From the NCBI RefSeq assembly GCF_022662495.1, contig NZ_JAKPBU010000005.1, forward strand, positions 124,001 through 188,000: a stretch of 64,000 nucleotides of DNA, written 5' to 3'. This stretch comes from Lysobacter sp. M2-1 (lineage in GTDB: Bacteria > Pseudomonadota > Gammaproteobacteria > Xanthomonadales > Xanthomonadaceae). Position numbers and translations under genes: made by a program. The notes below the pieces were generated by a model. The model was given only the letters and a program-made list of their open reading frames with translations. It was not told the DNA's origin and ran no database searches. This document shows, in pieces, positions 5,342-31,104 of this stretch. The stretch's first letter is position 1; every line of letters starts with the position of its first letter.

Positions 5342-5794
5342 TCACATGGGTCCGCCTCCGCCACGGCACGTGGGGGGACTGGTTGGCGAGACTTGCACGG
5401 GGCAGCTCTTCAGGCAGTTCGAGCCGCGCGTTGAATTTTCCTCGATGCACGCCACGCGTTCCGGCCCTTCGGGATGCGCGTTGATGCATGCCTGGTAGCC
5501 GTCCGCAGTCTGCTTGGAGCAGCGACTGGAACAGTCGGACCAGCTTGAGTCGTACGTGCATTCCCAGAACTCCGGGCTGGCAAAGAAGTCCTCCAGCGGC
5601 GAGCGCCCGAAAGTATGTGCGGCTCGCAGCTTCGCCCTCAGGTCGCGGTTTTGCTCCTGCATGGCCGCGGCTCCCTTCTCCAGGTCGGCTATACGCTTCT
5701 CCATGCCGTCGCTGCCGGGAGGCGGCCTGCTTCCGCAGCCCGCAAGCGTCAGTACGAGGAGAGAAGCCCATAGAAACGTGATTCCGATGCGCAT
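5342..5794 (-). CDS. Cys-rich lipoprotein with short coiled coil
   Basis: 150 residues. The signal sequence ends in a lipobox LAGC (Cys20), so the protein is expected to be lipid-anchored. Residues ~30-60 (MEKRIADLEKGAAAMQEQNR onward) form a heptad-like charged helix. The rest carries nine further cysteines, with CTYDSSWSDCSSRC and GSNCLKSC clusters, and ends in a Gly-rich tail. No family is recognised. Like the secreted protein at 2663-3001, it is a small exported Cys-rich product followed by a hairpin of the A/B type. Confidence 0.7.
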   Translation of the reverse strand: MRIGITFLWASLLVLTLAGCGSRPPPGSDGMEKRIADLEKGAAAMQEQNRDLRAKLRAAHTFGRSPLEDFFASPEFWECTYDSSWSDCSSRCSKQTADGYQACINAHPEGPERVACIEENSTRGSNCLKSCPVQVSPTSPPTCRGGGGPM

Positions 5795-5878
5795 GTGCCT
5801 GCTCCATTGCTAGTGACCCCTGCAAGCAGGAAAACGATGCCGCAAGTTGGAATCGGACAGGGCTCGATTGCCAAGAGC

Positions 5879-6064
5879 GGGGTCAGGTTCACTTGTCGGA
5901 TGAGTTGCACCTGGGCGGCCGGTGCGCGGGCCGGGCTCCGGCGAAGCGACGTAAGAGCGGCCAGTTCACTTGATCAGAGGGGATGAGGCAGCCTGGAAAG
6001 AAGGGAGGTGTGCGTATCCGATTGAAACCTGATGTTTGGTCCACGTATAAATGAACCTGACCCA
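5879..6064. repeat. 186 bp segment bounded by inverted GGGTCAGGTTCA / TGAACCTGACCC
   Basis: GGGGTCAGGTTCAC at 5879-5892 and TGAACCTGACCC at 6052-6063 face each other. The sequence between has no credible ORF. It resembles a solo copy of the repeat that borders the halogenase. Confidence 0.6.
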
Positions 6065-23654: not shown

Positions 23655-24527
23655 ATGTCGCTCAACCGTCTCTTCGGCGCATTCTTCACGGGTGCCGTGA
23701 TCGCATTGGCGCTAGGCCTGTCCGCCGGCCGCGCGCACGCGCGTCCTCCCTACGAGAGCATCGAAATCGCGCCCGGGCTCTACAGTTTCGGCGCCGGGAT
23801 GGCGTTCAACGCGTTCATGATCACCGACGATGGCGTGATCGTAATGGACAGTTTCGACGAGGACTTCGCCAAGGCATCGCTCGCGGCGATCCGCAAGCTG
23901 ACCGACAAGCCGATCCGATATCTCGTCTATTCGCACAACCACTACGACCACATCAGCGGCGGCGCCGTGTTCAAGGCCGAAGGCGCGAAGATTCTGAGTC
24001 ACGAAACGGCCGCCGCCTGGTTGAGGGCGCATCCGAGCCCGGACGTGGTCATGCCCGACGAGACGTGGTCCGGGACCAGGTCCGTACTGAAGCTTGGGCA
24101 CAGCCAGATCGATCTCCTCTACTTTGGCGCGAACCACGGCGAAGGCATGACCGTGTTTTTGTTTCCGCGCGAGAAGACGATCTACACCGTCGACCTCGTC
24201 GTGCCGAAGCGCGTGGGCTTCACCTACATGCCCGATTTCTCGCCGAAGGAGTGGGAACGCACGCTCGCCGAGATGGGCGCACTCGATTTCGACCGCGTGA
24301 TGTACGCGCACAACGCGGCCGTGGGGCCGCGGTCGAGCGTCGCGGATCAACTCAGGTATCTGCAGGACCTGCGGGCCGCGGTACTGGCTGAACTCAAGCA
24401 GGGCACGCCGTTCATGCAGGTTCCCATGACGGTGAAGCTGCCGCAGTACGAAACATGGGACGGATACGACGAATGGTTGCCAATGAATGCCTGGCGCATC
24501 CTTCTTGAAATCGCGATGGGCGTGTAG
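23655..24527 (+). CDS. Exported metallo-beta-lactamase-fold hydrolase
   Basis: 290 residues from ATG 23655, chosen because a Sec signal peptide (MSLNRLFGAFFTGAVIALAL, cleavage near AHA) begins there. The zinc motif HxHxDH is H94-N-H96-Y-D98-H99 (YSHNHYDHISGG). A second-sphere Asp in YTVDLVVPKRV and a late His in MYAHNAAVGP complete the likely site, and GANHGEGMTVF supplies the middle His. Members with this layout include SoxH-like and quinoprotein-relay-like hydrolases rather than antibiotic-hydrolysing B1 enzymes. The substrate is unknown. It is followed by a GGGGTCAGAG motif (24565). Confidence 0.85.
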   Translation: MSLNRLFGAFFTGAVIALALGLSAGRAHARPPYESIEIAPGLYSFGAGMAFNAFMITDDGVIVMDSFDEDFAKASLAAIRKLTDKPIRYLVYSHNHYDHISGGAVFKAEGAKILSHETAAAWLRAHPSPDVVMPDETWSGTRSVLKLGHSQIDLLYFGANHGEGMTVFLFPREKTIYTVDLVVPKRVGFTYMPDFSPKEWERTLAEMGALDFDRVMYAHNAAVGPRSSVADQLRYLQDLRAAVLAELKQGTPFMQVPMTVKLPQYETWDGYDEWLPMNAWRILLEIAMGV

Positions 24528-24669
24528 CCAGGGTTCGAAGGGTCGTCAGGAAGAAGGAGAAAAAGGGGTCAGAGTGGGGTTGTCCGAGTTTTTTCGGACA
24601 CCACGAAGCGGGGACAATCCTCGCACGGAGGTCGCGGACGCCGACCTTCGATCAAAGATGCTCACGCGG

Positions 24670-25056
24670 TCAAGCCACAGCAATGACTTCGATCTCAACC
24701 AGCCAATCGGTCATCAGGGTTTGTGCAACGATCGCCGTCGTCGGAATGCGGCGATCGCCTAGCGCACGCGTGCGTGCGGCACCGTTAGCCTCGGCATATG
24801 ACGGGTCACGTAGATAGCTGGTCAACCGCACGATATTCTCGATGGTCATGTCAGCGCTGGCGAGAATCGTCCTTATATTCGACCAGATCAATTCGAGTTG
24901 TTCGTCGAGCGTCGTGCCAGCGACGCCATGTTCGTCCAGGCCCATTGTGCCGGCGACAAATAGGATCCGCTTGGGCTCCTGAACCTCGATGGCATGCACG
25001 TAATCTGGTGTGGCCGGATAAATCCCAGCGGTTGGGTTATGCGAGACAAGCTTCAT
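24670..25056 (-). CDS. RidA (YjgF/YER057c/UK114) family protein
   Basis: 128 residues. The fold signature is clear: ILFVAGTMGLDEHGV, LEQ-like DEQLELIWSNIRTILASADM, ENIVRLTSYLRD and WLVEIEVIAVA. In true RidA the segment IPxRS carries the arginine that holds the enamine/imine carboxylate. Here it reads RRIPTTAIVAQT, so that Arg is replaced by Thr and imine deaminase activity is doubtful. It is the first gene of a low-GC stretch on the minus strand and lies downstream of a truncated attC-like site, so it may be cassette-derived or the native edge of the island. Confidence 0.85.
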   Translation of the reverse strand: MKLVSHNPTAGIYPATPDYVHAIEVQEPKRILFVAGTMGLDEHGVAGTTLDEQLELIWSNIRTILASADMTIENIVRLTSYLRDPSYAEANGAARTRALGDRRIPTTAIVAQTLMTDWLVEIEVIAVA

Positions 25057-25089
25057 GCGGATTTTCCTTTCTTTCAGTAAAGATTCCCG

Positions 25090-25145
25090 GAGCGCACCAA
25101 GATGTCCAGCCGCGAAGTGGCTTCGGCTTGAACGGATTGTTAGGC
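25090..25145 (-). repeat. attC-like site, 3' of GNAT gene 1 (partial)
   Basis: On the minus strand the site opens with the core GCCTAAC (25139-25145), whose TAA is the stop codon of the acetyltransferase. It continues AATCCGTTCAAGCCGAAGCC and CACTTCGCGG, which matches the classical first half of integron attC sites. The expected second half (GGCTTAACTC...GTTAGGC) is not seen; instead the sequence passes into the leader of the RidA gene. I read it as a truncated attC. Confidence 0.7.
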
Positions 25146-25628
25146 CTCGCCGGAAGCCAGGCCTGCGAGGCTTGACCCACTGGTCCTGAAGATCAGGAGC
25201 TCATCCATTGGGCGAGCGCCAACATGTTTGAAGAACTTGATGGCGCTGGTGTTCGTCTTGAGCGCCCACCACTCAAATCTGACGCAGCCCTTCTCTTGTG
25301 CGATTCGAGCGAGGTGGCGCAGCAGCAAGCGACCGTAGCCAAGGCCTTGGAACTCTGGCCGAACAAACAAATCATCCAAATGAAGGCCGCGTCTACCAGT
25401 CGTTGTTGCGAAGGTCTGGTAAAAAACTGCAAATCCGGCCAACCTTTTCCCGGCGAAAGCAAGGACAGCCTCGGCGACAGGCTCTTGGCCAAATAGGCTC
25501 TCGGCAAGGTCATCTGCCGTGACCGTTACTGGAAATGGGAATTCCTCTGCAACGGCCAGTTCATTGATTAGATCAAGCAGATCTTGCAGGTCGGCCGGCG
25601 TAGCGGGGCGAATACCAAAATCTGTCAT
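25140..25628 (-). CDS. GNAT acetyltransferase 1 (cassette gene)
   Basis: 162 residues from ATG 25628; a GTG two codons earlier is possible. It has a GNAT fold: N-terminal IRPATPADLQDLLDLINELA, the acetyl-CoA pyrophosphate loop FVRPEFQGLGYGRLLLRHLA (RxxGxG/A pattern as QGLGYG), and the late Trp-x-x-x-x-x-N segment WWALKTNTSAIKFFKHVGA. It resembles diamine/aminoglycoside-like N-acetyltransferases, but the substrate cannot be assigned. GC is low, and the stop codon TAA is part of the attC core GCCTAAC, the usual arrangement in integron cassettes. Confidence 0.85.
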   Translation of the reverse strand: MTDFGIRPATPADLQDLLDLINELAVAEEFPFPVTVTADDLAESLFGQEPVAEAVLAFAGKRLAGFAVFYQTFATTTGRRGLHLDDLFVRPEFQGLGYGRLLLRHLARIAQEKGCVRFEWWALKTNTSAIKFFKHVGARPMDELLIFRTSGSSLAGLASGEA

Positions 25629-25645
25629 AAGCACTCCACGAACCT

Positions 25646-25711
25646 GGTTGTGGGACTGCCTGAATTAAGACGACCCGGCGAGGCGGACTCCATTGGAATG
25701 AATTGTCAGCC
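25646..25711 (-). repeat. attC-like site, 3' of GNAT gene 2
   Basis: On the minus strand: GGCTGAC (25705-25711, containing the TGA stop) then AATTCATTCCAA, GCCGCC-like GTCCGCCTCGCCGG and CGTCTTAATTCAGGC. Both half-sites of a short attC are recognisable, with CTTAATTCAGGC being the typical second-half sequence. The terminal GTTRRRY core is degenerate. Confidence 0.6.
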
Positions 25712-26245
25712 GTCAATCGTCAATTGACGCAGCATGACCACCATGCTCATTTCACGAAGATCGGTTCTAAACGGTATCTCGCCCTGTTTCACGAACCCCT
25801 TGCCCGCGTAAAAGCGCTGTGCGCCTAGGTTCGACTTGAGCACGTCGAGCCATATCAGATCCTGGCCACGCTCTGTTGCTGCGTGCGCAATGAAGTCAAC
25901 AAGCTGTTCGCCATATCCCTTGCCGGTCGCAGAGGCGAGGAAGTAGATCTTCTGAAGCTCTGCGCCTATGGCGCCTGAGATCGGCGCCGGCCTATTCCAG
26001 TTAATCTTGGCGTAGCCAATGACGGCGTCCCTGGCGTCTTGGGCGAGCAGCCACATATGATCAGGCGACGAAAGGGAGCGCTGCAGTGCAGGCTCAGAAA
26101 AGTCCTGCTGTAAGAATTCCTGCAAGCCCCTCTCGGACCAGATGGACGGAAAATGATCGAGATATGTTTCTCTTCCGATGATTTGAATAGCGACTAGATC
26201 GCTGACCGATGCCGTACGAATCTTGAGCAGTTCGCTTCTTGTCAT
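25706..26245 (-). CDS. GNAT acetyltransferase 2 (cassette gene)
   Basis: 179 residues from ATG 26245. The N-terminus IRTASVSDLVAIQIIGRETY, the acetyl-CoA loop IYFLASATGKGYGEQLVDFI (GxGxG variant) and the final AQRFYAGKGFVKQGEIPFRT are typical of GNAT proteins of the PaiA/RimI-like group, in which an LxxxYxxxGF segment ends the fold. Substrate unknown. It is low GC like its neighbour. The start codon lies just inside the attC-like site of the preceding cassette, leaving almost no leader, again as in integron cassettes. Confidence 0.82.
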   Translation of the reverse strand: MTRSELLKIRTASVSDLVAIQIIGRETYLDHFPSIWSERGLQEFLQQDFSEPALQRSLSSPDHMWLLAQDARDAVIGYAKINWNRPAPISGAIGAELQKIYFLASATGKGYGEQLVDFIAHAATERGQDLIWLDVLKSNLGAQRFYAGKGFVKQGEIPFRTDLREMSMVVMLRQLTIDG

Positions 26246-26248
26246 GAT

Positions 26249-26307
26249 GGTTGCCGCATGTAATCCGACGCTCTGCGATCGGCTTCGGCTTGAATGGGCT
26301 ATTAGGC
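26249..26307 (-). repeat. attC-like site, 3' of the frameshifted cassette ORF
   Basis: Minus strand: GCCTAAT (26301-26307), AGCCCATTCAAGCCGAAGCC, a GATCGCAGAGC spacer, then GTCGGATTACATGCGGC, which partly complements the first arm. The TAA in the core would be the stop of an ORF ending ...YAKNDA. The core is GCCTAAT instead of GCCTAAC. Confidence 0.6.
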
Positions 26308-26558
26308 ATCGTTCTTGGCGTACTGGTCAACGCCCACAAGATGGAGTGGCCCATACGGCTCCTGACAAATAACTCACTATCGTGTGATGTCCAGCGTTTG
26401 ACAGAAAAAGACCGCTGCAGTTCGGCCGGAATGCTGTCATGTTCATCTGTTTGGGACTCGAACTTGCCGTCATCTGTTTTGGGGCGCGCCCCCTGAACTA
26501 CGGAACCAGAAGCAGTAGCTGCGCAAAACAATACAGCGATGACGAATCTCTTGGTCAA
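26302..26558 (-). pseudogene. Frameshifted cassette ORF for a small secreted protein
   Basis: From TTG 26558 the frame opens with a good signal peptide (MTKRFVIAVLFCAATASGSV, cleavage near QGA) and a hydrophilic mature part. It continues in the wrong frame straight through the attC-like site and over GNAT 2. In another frame the last ~23 codons read VICQEPYGPLHLVGVDQYAK-NDA and stop exactly at the attC TAA, as a cassette gene should. A single indel near codon 60 would join the two. The start lies in the T-tract of the terminator, which is odd, so expression is doubtful. Confidence 0.45.
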
Positions 26559-26594
26559 AAAAGCCCCCGGCCAGACGAGGTAATAGCCGGGGGT
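26556..26594 (-). terminator. Rho-independent terminator of the protease operon
   Basis: On the minus strand CCCCCGGC (26586-26593) pairs with GCCGGGGG (26564-26571) around a 14 nt loop, followed by TTTTTT (26557-26562). It lies ~240 bp after the stop of the S8 protease at 26836. A second GC hairpin, CCCCGAG/CTCGGGG, lies at 26771-26788 in between. Confidence 0.85.
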
Positions 26595-26835
26595 TCGGCA
26601 ATACTCGGTCACACGTGCTTTCGCATGCGGGAATTGAGGGGAGAGGGGGAGACCGCATGCTCCGAGTAGTTTGCTTAAGGGCGGAGATCCTTCGAATCCC
26701 CAGTTGATGGCTCGATACCGGGTTGTCGCAGGTGCAGACACACTGAAAAGCTCCGTACGCTTTGCCCCGGCCCCGAGGCTTCTCGGGGCACGGAAAGGAG
26801 GCGCAGGCGCTAACCTGTGCGTCCCATGTTCCAAG

Positions 26836-28959
26836 TCAGTACGTTGTCGTGACCGACGGCGCACACTCCGTGGTATCGGTGTTGCACACCGTGTACGACG
26901 CCTGCCCGCCAGCTGTGGCCCGGAACGAGTCGGTTGCGGTGCCGTCGTTCCTGACGGTGCGTACATAGGCGCCATTGCGATAGACATCGACCTGCTTCTT
27001 GCCGGAGTCCCAGCTCAGGGTCACGCGGACACCTTGCTTGCCACGGAGACTCTTGGCCTGCAGATTCCGTGGCCAGAGGTTGTCGACGAACGAGGCGTAC
27101 AGCGAAACTCCGGTGAATCCATTGGCCGTGCCCGAGTGGAGTGGAACGAGCCGCACGAAATAAGGCCCCGGGGTCGGCGCGACGACCGCGCAGAATGTCG
27201 TGGTTGCTCCGTCGCCCGATTCGCAGTCGTTGTCGCCCAGTGTGGGCAGCTTGCCCCGCCGCACGAACATGCCAACCCTGCCCGCGCCACCCCAGGTCTT
27301 GACCTGCAAATGTTTGGCGCCTGGCGGTATGTCGATGGCGTACCAAAGACTGTCGTCGGGATTGAAGGTCGCTTCGGTAGGTGGCACGGTGTTGCTTGAG
27401 CTAAGTCCCGTCAACTCCAAGCCGCTGCGAAGCACGTCGATGGATCTGGTCGGCCCGGGATAGGCCGGCGGTGCCGGTGGGAGGGGCGTGTGCCCGGCGG
27501 CAACGGAGACCGCGCGGGTCGCGTTCACCACGCCTGTCCCGCACTGGAAATCAAACGAGCAACCCTTGGGAAATCCAAGGCCCGTGTCGTAAGCCGTATA
27601 GGCGAGGATCTTTCGGATCTCGGCAGGGGTTTTGGGTGTGGCCGCTGCCGACTGCATGAGGGCGGCGACCCCGGCAACGTGGGGCGTCGCCATCGACGTG
27701 CCGGCGTACCAGGCGTAGATCGGGTTTCCGACTCCGGTCACGCCATCATTCAGTGTCGACAGGATGTTGGACTCCATGGGCCAGAGGCCCGAGCCACCAG
27801 GAGCAGCCACCGTGACGCGCTCACCGAAATTCGAGTAGAAGGCCCGCTCGGTCTCTGGACCGGTAGCGGCCACTGCAATCGCGCCATCACAACTCGCAGG
27901 CGTCGCGTAACGGACGCCCGTGTTGTTGTTGCCGGCGGCCGCCACCACGATCGCGCCATTGGAGATGGCTCTCGTCACCGCCGCCTGAGCCGCCGGATCG
28001 CAAGGCTGCGATGCACCCAGGCTCAGATTGATGACATCCGCAGGTGTGGTGTTATCAGGCACGCCAGGCACCGTGCCGCCCGAAGCCCAGACGATCGCGT
28101 CGAGAACGTCGGATTGGTGTCCACCTTGCTTGCCCAGCGCCCGAACCGGCTGAATCTTGGCGTGGTGCGCGATGCCGGCCATGCCGATACCATTGTTGGT
28201 AACGGCAGCGATCGTGCCGGCGACATGGGTGCCGTGCCAGCTTGACGGGCGACCCTGAAACGAGTCGCCAACGTCATGCGCATCGGGATCTCGACCGTCG
28301 CCATCGCCCGCCACGATCGGGTCCGAAATCATGTCATAGCCGGCGATGACATTGGCATTGAGGTCAGGGTGGTCAGTGATGCCGGTATCAATCACCGCCA
28401 CGACCGTTCCCAGGCCGGTGGCGATATCCCAGGCGCCCTCGACGGCGATGCCGCCTCCGCTGCTGTGGTAATCCCATTGCTGCGAATAGAGCGGATCGTT
28501 CGGAGTACCCAAAGGAGTCCAGATCGCATCGACGGATACGTGCTTGACGTTCGGATCTCGCACCAGTTCCTTCTTCAGGCGTTTGATGTCCGCGCTATTG
28601 AGTTCACGTTCGACCTCGATTACATCAGCGCCGATGGCAAGCCGCCGCAAGCGACCAATGCGCAGCCCCAGCGCTTTTCCCGCGCCTCCGATCAATCTCT
28701 GGACCCTGGCGGCGTTGTAGTTCTTTTCCGTTCCGGGCCGGTACATCACGATGAAACGTTTGGCCGATTGATCGGACCCCTTGACCGTTGCTGTGCCTTT
28801 GGCTGCCGTCGGGCCGAAGGTGACGCGCTTTGCGCCGGATCGAGAGGTCTTCGATGCCGGCTGGTCGGGTGGACCACCCGCAAGAGCCTGCTGGGTGAAG
28901 ACGAGCATTACGCCAAGCGCCAAGGCAGATGCGCGAGGCCACTTAAGGGAATGATTCAT
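26836..28959 (-). CDS. Secreted S8 (subtilisin-type) serine protease, downstream copy
   Basis: 707 residues from ATG 28959; an ATG four codons upstream is possible. The order is: Sec signal peptide (cleavage near ALA), inhibitor-like propeptide (~70-150, SAKRFIVMYRPG to DPNVKHVSVD), then the catalytic domain with D191 (VIDTGI), H242 (HGTHVAG) and S422 (GTSMATPHVAG). A pre-peptidase C-terminal-like beta domain (~535-640) comes next, and a short fibronectin-like C-terminal strand pair (RVTLSWDSGKKQVDVYRNGA) closes the protein. It should mature outside the cell and degrade protein. It is about 60% alike in pattern to the gene directly upstream (29002-31104), lies 42 bp from it on the same strand, and is followed by a strong terminator, so they form an operon born by tandem duplication. 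Confidence 0.93.
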   Translation of the reverse strand: MNHSLKWPRASALALGVMLVFTQQALAGGPPDQPASKTSRSGAKRVTFGPTAAKGTATVKGSDQSAKRFIVMYRPGTEKNYNAARVQRLIGGAGKALGLRIGRLRRLAIGADVIEVERELNSADIKRLKKELVRDPNVKHVSVDAIWTPLGTPNDPLYSQQWDYHSSGGGIAVEGAWDIATGLGTVVAVIDTGITDHPDLNANVIAGYDMISDPIVAGDGDGRDPDAHDVGDSFQGRPSSWHGTHVAGTIAAVTNNGIGMAGIAHHAKIQPVRALGKQGGHQSDVLDAIVWASGGTVPGVPDNTTPADVINLSLGASQPCDPAAQAAVTRAISNGAIVVAAAGNNNTGVRYATPASCDGAIAVAATGPETERAFYSNFGERVTVAAPGGSGLWPMESNILSTLNDGVTGVGNPIYAWYAGTSMATPHVAGVAALMQSAAATPKTPAEIRKILAYTAYDTGLGFPKGCSFDFQCGTGVVNATRAVSVAAGHTPLPPAPPAYPGPTRSIDVLRSGLELTGLSSSNTVPPTEATFNPDDSLWYAIDIPPGAKHLQVKTWGGAGRVGMFVRRGKLPTLGDNDCESGDGATTTFCAVVAPTPGPYFVRLVPLHSGTANGFTGVSLYASFVDNLWPRNLQAKSLRGKQGVRVTLSWDSGKKQVDVYRNGAYVRTVRNDGTATDSFRATAGGQASYTVCNTDTTECAPSVTTTY

Positions 28960-29001
28960 GGACAACCTCATTGAATGAAGGTGGTTTGCGGCTCAGCGGC
29001 G

Positions 29002-31104
29002 TCAGTACTTGGCGGTCACCGTCGGTGCGCACTCGGTGGTGTCGCTGTTGCAAACCGTGTAGATCGATCGGCCGCTACCGGAAGGTCGGAACGAGTCGGT
29101 AGCTGAGCCCGTGTTGTTCAGAGTGCGCAGCAAGGCGCCGTTGCGGTACAGGTCGACGCGCCGCTTACCCGCTTTCCACGTGAGCGTGACGCGTACACCC
29201 TCTTTGCCGTATTGCCCGGCGCTGGCTTGCAGGTTTCTCGGCCAGTTGCCGTCCTCGAATGCCGCGTAGAGGGATGCCCCGGAAAACGATGCATTGGTGC
29301 CAAAAGGCATCAGCCTGATGTAATAGGTGCCGGGAATCGGCGCGGTAAAACCGCATGCATGCTCTGAAACATTTCCTGAGTTGCAGTCGGATTCGCCCAA
29401 ATGCGGCAGCTTGCCTTGCCGGACCAACATCCGAAGATCCCCACTGGCACCCCAGCTCTGGATCAGCAGATGCTTGGCACCGGGTGGCACCTCAACGGTG
29501 TACCAGAGGCTGTCGTTCGGCTTGGGAACGTACTGCGCATCGTCCGGATCGTTGGTGGAGTCGCTCGCAGCCAAGCCGCTCAATTCGGATCCATTGGCCA
29601 TGGGGACCATTGGCCTGGTCGGTCCCGGGTAGGCGGGCGGCGCGGGCGGGAGCGGTAGACGCCCCGCGGCGACGGCGACCGCGCGACTCGCGTTCAATAC
29701 GCCCGAGCCACACTGGAAGTCCAAGGAGCAACCCGTGGGGAAGCCTAGGCTGCCGTCGTAGGCTGTGTTGATCAGGATCTTTTCGACTTCAGCCGGGGTC
29801 TTGCGCGTCGCCGAGGCCGCCTGGATCAGGGCCGCCACGCCCGCGACGTGCGGTGCCGCCATCGAGGTGCCGGCATACCACCGGTAGGTGGGGTTTCCAG
29901 GAGCGATCATGCCATCGTTCAGCGTGGACAGGATGTTGGCTTCGGCTGGCGCATAGCCGAGCCCTCCCGGCGCCGAGATGGCCAATTTCTCACCCAGGTT
30001 GCTGAAGAACGAACGCGCGCGATTCGGATCGGTTGCCCCGACGGTGATCGTGCCGATGCAGTTCGCGGGGGAGAAGTAGCGTGCCGGCGCCCCATTGTTT
30101 CCGGCGGCTGCGACCACCGTCGCTCCGTTGCCGACGGCAAGCGTGATCGCCGCCTGCGTCGCGGGATCGCACGTGAAGTTGGGCCCGCCACCAAAGCCGC
30201 CCAGGCTGACATTGATCACGTCGGCGGGGGTTGGGTTGTCCGGTGCGCCCACGACGGCGCCGCCAGATGCCCACACAATGCCGTCGATGATGTCGGACAT
30301 GAAGCCGCCATACGCACCCAACACCCGCACGGGTTGGACCTTGGCCTGATGCGCGATGCCGGCGACGCCGAGGCCATTGTTGGTGACCGCAGCGATAGTT
30401 CCAGCGACATGGGTACCGTGCCAGCTCGAGGAACGGAATGGTGAGCCGTCTCCCGGATCGTGCGCATCCGGGTCGCGACCATCGCCGTCAGCTGCGTTAA
30501 AGACATCGGAGACGAAATCGTAGCCGGGGATCACGTTGCCATTCAGATCGGGATGGTCGGTGATGCCGGTGTCGACCACCGCGACCACGGCGCCGGCACC
30601 GGCGGTGACATCCCACGCGCCTTCCACGTCGATGCCGCCCAAGCCGTTGCGGTAGTGCCACTGCTGCGGATACATCGGGTCATTCGGAACCGCCATCGGC
30701 TTCCATAGCGCATCGACCGATACGTAGGCGACGTTCGGGTCTTTCGCCAGTTCCTTCCTGAGGCGCCCGATGCCGGCACTGTCGAGGGCACGGTCGGCCA
30801 CGATCACGTCGGAACCCACGGCCAGGCGCCGCAACCGGTGCATGCGGACGCCGAGCGCCCTCCCGGCCACGCCGACCAGGTTCTGGACCTTGGCGTCGTT
30901 GTATTGTCGTGAAGCTCCCTTTCGATACGTCACGATGAAACGTTTGGCCGATTGCGGCGCCTTCGGCGATGCGATCGGCTGCTTTGCGTTCGCGCGGGTC
31001 TTGACCTTGCCCGGTGGCGCACCCGCCACGGCAGCACCTACGAAGGCGAGCACCACCCCCAGCGACAACGTGCGAATGATTCGAGTACTGAACAAGCCAG
31101 TCAT
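29002..31104 (-). CDS. Secreted S8 (subtilisin-type) serine protease, upstream copy
   Basis: 700 residues from ATG 31104. Domain order is the same as in its downstream paralogue: signal peptide, inhibitor-like propeptide (SAKRFIVTYRKG onward), catalytic triad D178 (VVDTGI), H229 (HGTHVAG) and S414 (GTSMAAPHVAG), PPC-like domain and a C-terminal RVTLTWKAGKRRVDLYRNGA strand pair ending in TVCNSDTTECAPTVTAKY. Cysteine pairs are conserved between the copies. It is the first gene of the pair, and its promoter should lie in the 460 bp shared with the divergent response-regulator gene, a position that makes regulation by that two-component system plausible. Confidence 0.93.
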   Translation of the reverse strand: MTGLFSTRIIRTLSLGVVLAFVGAAVAGAPPGKVKTRANAKQPIASPKAPQSAKRFIVTYRKGASRQYNDAKVQNLVGVAGRALGVRMHRLRRLAVGSDVIVADRALDSAGIGRLRKELAKDPNVAYVSVDALWKPMAVPNDPMYPQQWHYRNGLGGIDVEGAWDVTAGAGAVVAVVDTGITDHPDLNGNVIPGYDFVSDVFNAADGDGRDPDAHDPGDGSPFRSSSWHGTHVAGTIAAVTNNGLGVAGIAHQAKVQPVRVLGAYGGFMSDIIDGIVWASGGAVVGAPDNPTPADVINVSLGGFGGGPNFTCDPATQAAITLAVGNGATVVAAAGNNGAPARYFSPANCIGTITVGATDPNRARSFFSNLGEKLAISAPGGLGYAPAEANILSTLNDGMIAPGNPTYRWYAGTSMAAPHVAGVAALIQAASATRKTPAEVEKILINTAYDGSLGFPTGCSLDFQCGSGVLNASRAVAVAAGRLPLPPAPPAYPGPTRPMVPMANGSELSGLAASDSTNDPDDAQYVPKPNDSLWYTVEVPPGAKHLLIQSWGASGDLRMLVRQGKLPHLGESDCNSGNVSEHACGFTAPIPGTYYIRLMPFGTNASFSGASLYAAFEDGNWPRNLQASAGQYGKEGVRVTLTWKAGKRRVDLYRNGALLRTLNNTGSATDSFRPSGSGRSIYTVCNSDTTECAPTVTAKY

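Follow-up and report, generated by a model that had tools for sequence, protein, structure and literature searches.

Clusters of attC sites lacking an integrase (CALINs) are found away from the main integron in about half of Xanthomonas genomes, as stated in the available text of PMC12444791. It was proposed that such clusters are degraded integrons, and two sites are enough for IntegronFinder 2 to report a CALIN (PMC9024848, in the sections available). The attC sites without intI were also described for Treponema phagedenis (PMC3607928, likewise in part). Loss can also concern the single site. Cassettes with attC truncated to little but the R'' box were described (PMC12901181, citing earlier work), and for a truncated attC of Pseudomonas aeruginosa the conclusion was that it does not serve the integrase as a substrate (PMC4670013). 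As far as the available sections of these two papers go, a partial loss of attC, e.g., when R'' alone is left, ties the neighbouring genes into a fixed unit (PMC4670013; PMC12901181).

The locus considered here belongs to Lysobacter sp. M2-1. The window, i.e., the whole 64,000-nucleotide stretch of DNA that was analysed, corresponds to C6:124001-188000 (C6 being the window's contig) in a genome of 3.88 Mb and 12 contigs. Within it, the segment 25090-26558 is in all probability the decayed remnant of integron cassettes arranged in one orientation, with two stranded GNAT acetyltransferase genes and with sites originating from the attC type of this very genome. The features of this island and of its borders are listed below.

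24670-25056, minus strand: RidA-family gene; downstream border of the island
25092-25145, minus strand: attC1, putative half site 3' of GNAT1; left half at 25108-25145, right half not recognisable
25140-25634, minus strand: GNAT1 acetyltransferase, 164 aa; stop codon TAA inside the R'' box of attC1
25652-25711, minus strand: attC2, putative degraded site 3' of GNAT2; R'' and spacers still discernible, mismatches in the stem, no R' core left
25706-26245, minus strand: GNAT2 acetyltransferase, 179 aa; stop codon TGA inside the R'' box of attC2
26094-26558, minus strand: ORF3, TTG start at 26558; no family match; overlaps GNAT2
26248-26307, minus strand: attC3, putative half site, with ORF3 on one side and GNAT2 on the other; left arm still discernible, R' missing along with the right half
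26565-26580, minus strand: terminator-like hairpin that follows the gene for the S8 protease; borders the island upstream

On the minus strand, the order between the S8 protease gene (26836-28971) and the RidA-family gene is ORF3, GNAT2, and GNAT1. The presence of two GNAT acetyltransferase genes and the low GC content, both claimed in the original prediction, were confirmed; GC is 0.546 in 25090-26558 compared with 0.644 in the whole window, and 8 of 251 sliding windows of equal length are as low. The hairpin at 26565-26580 is weak evidence when taken alone, since five terminator-like hairpins were found in the region and 2.7 are expected from shuffles. No promoter-like site was found at 24500-27000, where shuffles lead one to expect 1.4, and none of 4227 Rfam families reached the gathering score in a scan of the window. 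The stretch 26836-31104 of the window holds a tandem pair of S8 protease genes with 62% identity over the aligned part.

The array had been predicted with no intI in view, and this is true of the window; the genome, however, does have an integrase gene. A single integron integrase match exceeds the curated cut-off (C6:320727-321668, 505 bits), and it is an open frame of 347 aa, with no internal stop, located on the same contig about 170 kb from the island. A cassette array of the same attC sequence type as the island adjoins this intI at about C6:313-320k. The genes after intI in the stretch C6:320727-324813 are a ComEC-like and an ExbB-like one. For this attC type a covariance model, named R1, was derived from the genome's own intact short sites (28 distinct ones, with the long-loop sites excluded), and its matches to its own training sites are by construction. 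In the R1 alignment 95.8% of cells pair, and three pairs change on both sides. None of 500 shuffles was as high for the cells paired, the cells changed on both sides, or the covariation score, while the alignment was not above shuffles for the number of pairs changed (450 of 500 as high) or for pair types (133 of 500).

The search of the genome with R1 returned at least 86 places at E<=1, in all conditions between intact and badly decayed; the scoring covered 150 of 5977 first-look candidates. They cluster at C1:407-415k (minus strand), C1:428-455k (plus strand), C1:915-932k, C1:2011-2021k, C2:157-160k, C6:313-320k, and C10:118-121k, the others being single. The region C1:407438-455650 contains decayed attC clusters with R1 scores of about 22 to 69 bits, so-called fossil arrays, alongside intact ones elsewhere in the genome. 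A large and mostly intact attC cluster is located at C1:915619-931896, on a contig different from that of the sole integrase match over the cut-off. The R1-type sites were also detected at E<=1e-4 in at least 26 of 35 other relatives (150 candidates scored per genome), and thus this attC type is widespread in the group.

Three attC-like segments in one orientation had been proposed for the island, and analysis of their left halves agrees with this. With the left-half matrix (columns 1-38), attC1 scores 49.3 bits (from 25145), attC3 24.1 bits (from 26307), and attC2 23.6 bits (from 25711), which makes them ranks 1-3 in the window; the next best place on either strand has 12.3 bits. In 60 simulated 64-kb windows the mean was 12.5 and the maximum 19.8 bits. 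Since all three left halves score above each of the 60 simulated windows, the sites are derived from attC. In the left half of attC1, only 1 of 38 columns has a letter absent from the 28 intact sites, and a repeat finder, used independently, paired 25119-25149 with 26281-26311 at 84%, i.e., the left half of attC1 with attC3. The left-half pattern GCCTAACAATNNNTTCAAGCCG (22 bases, 19 of them specified) occurs with up to two mismatches at 61 places genome-wide, compared with 0 for the reversed control, and attC1 is one of its exact matches.

The right halves present another picture. The mirrored right-half pattern was found at 56 places genome-wide (0 for the control), and no match to it was found at the island locus. 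In a local test, the right half of attC1 was at chance level (P 0.49) and that of attC3 was not significant (P 0.09). For attC2 the value was P 0.0004, the half being present but altered, and on the scale of the window it is unremarkable (12.7 bits compared with a null mean of 14.2). The GCCTAAC/CTGAC cores with TTCAAGCC arms, as originally described, fit attC1, in which the core GCCTAAC is accompanied by TTCAAGCC; in attC3 the core is GCCTAAT, with TTCAAGCC, and in attC2 it is GGCTGAC, without this arm. The GTT of R' is missing at its expected place in all three sites, and the AAC of R'' is retained in attC1 only.

Whole-site scoring gives a graded result. When the window was searched with R1 with filters off, attC2 (25654-25711) ranked first (23.3 bits, E 7.7e-4) and attC1 second, at a marginal level (15.2 bits, E 0.18); attC3 was absent from the 11 matches at E<=10. 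Genome-wide at E<=1, attC2 alone of the three was listed (E 0.047). Because attC2 scores, the three sites do not all fall below the covariance threshold when the own-genome model is used. Judged by sequence, attC1, attC2, and attC3 are all descendants of this genome's attC type.

The integrase acts on the bottom strand of attC. When this strand was folded as DNA for the three sites, the attC hairpins that the original prediction would lead one to expect were not obtained, the z values being +1.38 for attC1, +0.62 for attC2, and -0.99 for attC3. Among the controls, two intact sites of the same genome gave -5.04 and -5.85, a site from the Frateuria locus L100 gave -4.79, and a site from the Luteimonas locus L099 gave -1.67. 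As the island sites have neither an R' core nor a hairpin, excision of the island cassettes by IntI appears unlikely.

In light of these data, the island can be compared with the described systems. It is a CALIN-like, eroded remnant of a sedentary integron system with two intact stranded genes, and as such it is of a known kind. Like a CALIN, it has attC-derived sites in a row, in one orientation, with no intI nearby. Unlike in a CALIN, two of its three sites are at or below the detection limit of a model of intact sites, and the two-site rule may fail. The name CALIN, applied to the island in the original prediction, is therefore loosely right in that no integrase lies near the sites, but with the own-genome model one site is clear, one is marginal, and one is not found. 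With the sedentary chromosomal integron of Xanthomonas and its relatives the island shares an attC type that is that of the array beside intI (C6:313-320k), and it differs in its distance of about 170 kb from intI and in its sites, which are not intact. The available text of PMC12444791 places the Xanthomonas intI downstream of ilvD, while the neighbour considered here was the ComEC-like gene that follows intI. Partial loss of attC is also shared with fused or unusual class 1 cassettes with truncated attC. In contrast to these, the island is chromosomal, it has several decayed sites in a row, and both GNATs stay below the resistance-family cut-offs of NCBIfam.

The gene that can be followed into other genomes as a cassette is GNAT2. 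Its nearest named relatives, obtained in a search that may omit own-genome records, come from Luteimonas salinisoli (locus L099, 66%) and Frateuria defendens (locus L100, 56%). In both loci attC starts at the last matched codons of the gene (L100:6528-6587, 88.1 bits; L099:6507-6567, 36.8 bits), and each locus contains additional R1 matches. There, the frame runs into attC and ends in an FKPKP-type tail (by eye), whereas the stop codon of GNAT2 in the window is the TGA within R''. Of 42 named GNAT2 loci, 2 have an R1 site where the gene ends, with R1 tuned to the type of this genome; a further locus, L135, has two R1 matches elsewhere. A match to GNAT2 at E<=1e-30 is present in 1 of 296 other family genomes, a distribution as expected of a patchy cassette. 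As a gene that is followed by attC, and found elsewhere as a cassette, GNAT2 is an integron gene cassette by origin. The predicted cassette origin is hence supported by the motif and by attC at the GNAT2 gene end in two other species, but what is left in the window is a decayed remnant, not a working array.

A comparison of GNAT2 with the L099 gene revealed that codon positions 1, 2, and 3 differ 42, 30, and 100 times in 171 codons, and with the L100 gene 57, 49, and 105 times in 176 codons; dS is saturated in these comparisons, and constraint was read from the codon positions only. The pattern indicates a protein under constraint between species, and it does not date the decay of the site. 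The closest solved structure of GNAT2 is PaiA (1tiq, 2.7e-14), and the NCBIfam PaiA model gives 62.7 bits against a cut-off of 250. It is also worth mentioning that an isolated attC fragment, made up of the apical and right part, lies at L099:5937-5962 in Luteimonas salinisoli, shortly after a cut GNAT1-like stretch (5651-5902) and just upstream of the GNAT2 cassette.

For GNAT1, the closest solved structures are a probable N-acetyltransferase (2fe7, 2.2e-32) and thialysine acetyltransferases (12jc, 5e-32), followed by diamine acetyltransferases; an integron cassette protein of solved structure (3i9s, 1.7e-14) is among its matches as well. Neither GNAT1 nor GNAT2 reaches any NCBIfam cut-off. 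A match to GNAT1 at E<=1e-30 is present in 152 of 296 other family genomes, with about 40-51% identity among the matches listed, and in 19 GNAT1 loci from these 152 genomes neither an R1 match nor a second flank gene was found. Since relatives of GNAT1 are so widespread and none of the 19 loci has either feature, it is attC1 by itself that marks GNAT1 as a cassette.

All three ORFs were predicted to have an attC-like segment right at their stop codon. This is correct for GNAT1 (TAA) and GNAT2 (TGA), which stop in R'', but ORF3 does not stop at attC3 and is open through the site to 26094. Its translation across attC3 is PNSPFKPKPIA, and the frame is the one in which other cassettes encode their FKPKP-type tails. 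Among 55 own-genome cassette ORFs (at least 50 codons, at left-half-pattern sites within the retrieved stretches), 10 read through attC and end in the site-encoded tail FKP(K/R/N)PLRG(S/P)A, and two further tails are altered. These data fit ORF3 being a cassette ORF that would have lost its stop with the right half of attC3, and it may no longer be functional. No match to ORF3 was found at E<=1e-4 in 296 other family genomes, and no Pfam family was found. A frameshift in ORF3 was also considered and dropped because the long frame already crosses attC3 in the FKPKP-tail frame.

Two other readings of the island's present state have to be weighed. The sites might owe their resemblance to chance, or they might be a repeat or hairpin of another type and not attC at all. 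The lack of folding would be in line with this, and so would the R1 score, which is low or missing in two of the three; however, left halves exceeding those of all 60 simulated windows, the exact match of attC1 to a pattern whose reversed control has no match genome-wide, and the attC at the gene end of two GNAT2 relatives make such a coincidence hardly conceivable. It might also be assumed that the island is a working CALIN with cassettes that are still mobile, on which the integrase encoded about 170 kb away acts in trans. The uninterrupted intI in the genome and the nearly unchanged R'' and left arm of attC1 speak for this, but the GTT triplet of R' is missing at the expected place in every site and none of them folds as an attC hairpin, which renders continued mobility very improbable. 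According to the preferred reading, that of a decayed remnant, each island cassette would once have consisted of a gene and an attC of the type still carried by the genome's own integron. After decay of attC, with R' core and hairpin lost, the integrase could no longer cut the cassettes out, and the GNAT genes would now be fixed residents. They are probably retained as useful, for small-molecule or polyamine-type acetylation, and would be read from a promoter that the scan of 24500-27000 did not reveal.

The debatable issue is how the remnant came to its present location. On the RidA side, the recognisable part of attC1 ends near the hairpin tip (apical loop), not at R', the recombination point, which points to a junction left by deletion or rearrangement, or to decay, rather than to a fresh integrase product. 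This is most easily accommodated if a piece of an older, longer cassette array was displaced or severed by rearrangement and eroded afterwards, an origin that we consider to have somewhat less than an even chance. The truncation of attC1 at the RidA edge is joined here by the decayed clusters at C1:407-455k, which indicate that old arrays persist in this genome, and by the isolated attC right half that follows a cut GNAT-like stretch in L099, which indicates that half sites arise elsewhere. On the other hand, the window holds no further left half above 12.3 bits, and none of the retrieved loci revealed these genes in a longer array. Direct insertion by the integrase at a secondary site of the genome (attG-type), with decay thereafter, is also possible, with the balance of evidence rather against it. 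Such insertion was reported for E. coli (in the available text of PMC12444791, citing other work), and clusters are dispersed over several parts of this genome, but the end of attC1 near the apical loop instead of R' and the lack, by eye, of an R'-like border at the upstream end of the island do not suit a secondary-site insertion.

For an empty-site comparison, loci of relatives were retrieved with GNAT1, GNAT2, RidA, the metallo-beta-lactamase-like gene, and S8 protease as queries, and 11 window proteins were compared with them by tblastn. The retrieved loci showed no empty site and no ancestral array, the order of the flanks is kept in none of them, and no same-genus genome is among the relatives listed; part of the matches was retrieved and most loci span about 1.5 kb on each side, so this is not proof of absence. 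In the loci retrieved from outside its own genome, RidA, the lactamase-like gene, and S8 protease are never found together with a GNAT, nor any two of the three together. The co-conservation of both GNATs with their flanks was not seen in these loci. Among 59 other relatives, RidA had a match in 17 (one of them close), the lactamase-like gene in 2 (E<=1e-40), and S8 protease in 11 (E<=1e-120). The close relative of RidA, at G008:C8:64948-65330 (L146; 79% and 74%), is split over two frames and has a different context (by eye). In four loci (L069, L076, L112, and L114) a GNAT2-type gene is paired with a GGDEF-EAL or response-regulator homologue, and in L099 with the GNAT1-like stretch.

The left halves of the island sites being better preserved than the right ones, the question arises whether decay of attC is one-sided. 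It could be proposed, although we regard it as doubtful, that cassettes become permanent genes in this way: R'' doubles as a stop codon and is under coding selection, with TAA drifting to TGA, while R' is free to rot. Of the 86 R1 matches in the genome, 39 score at least 70 bits and 47 score below; after subtraction of five long-loop sites, 42 decayed short sites are left, which include attC2 and not attC1 or attC3. In these 42 sites, TGAC is present in R'' in 19 and its mirror GTCA in R' in 5, a post hoc count. For the 22 sites with an ORF of at least 70 aa ending at R'', the R' mirror is kept in 8, a split by ORF that is partly circular. Without conditioning on the reading frame, the difference is not significant (a stop in R'' in 29 of 42, the R' mirror in 23 of 42, p 0.31). 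Against one-sided decay, GTT is intact in 14 of the 42 sites and AAC in only 10, and where no such ORF is present (20 sites) the imbalance is reversed (7 compared with 15). The evidence is therefore mixed, and the stop-codon idea is only partly supported by the 42-site counts. In a narrow literature search, no description of one-sided attC decay tied to a stop codon was met; it may still be published. If the proposal is true, the left half would be a lasting scar of cassette capture that is missed by whole-site searches, as at attC1 and attC3.

The island would represent a late stage of cassette capture, in which formerly mobile cassettes now resemble ordinary chromosomal genes. This suggests that searches for whole sites undercount former cassettes. 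With an uninterrupted integrase gene and sites ranging from intact to nearly gone, all within one genome, the decay of attC can be followed in this Lysobacter.
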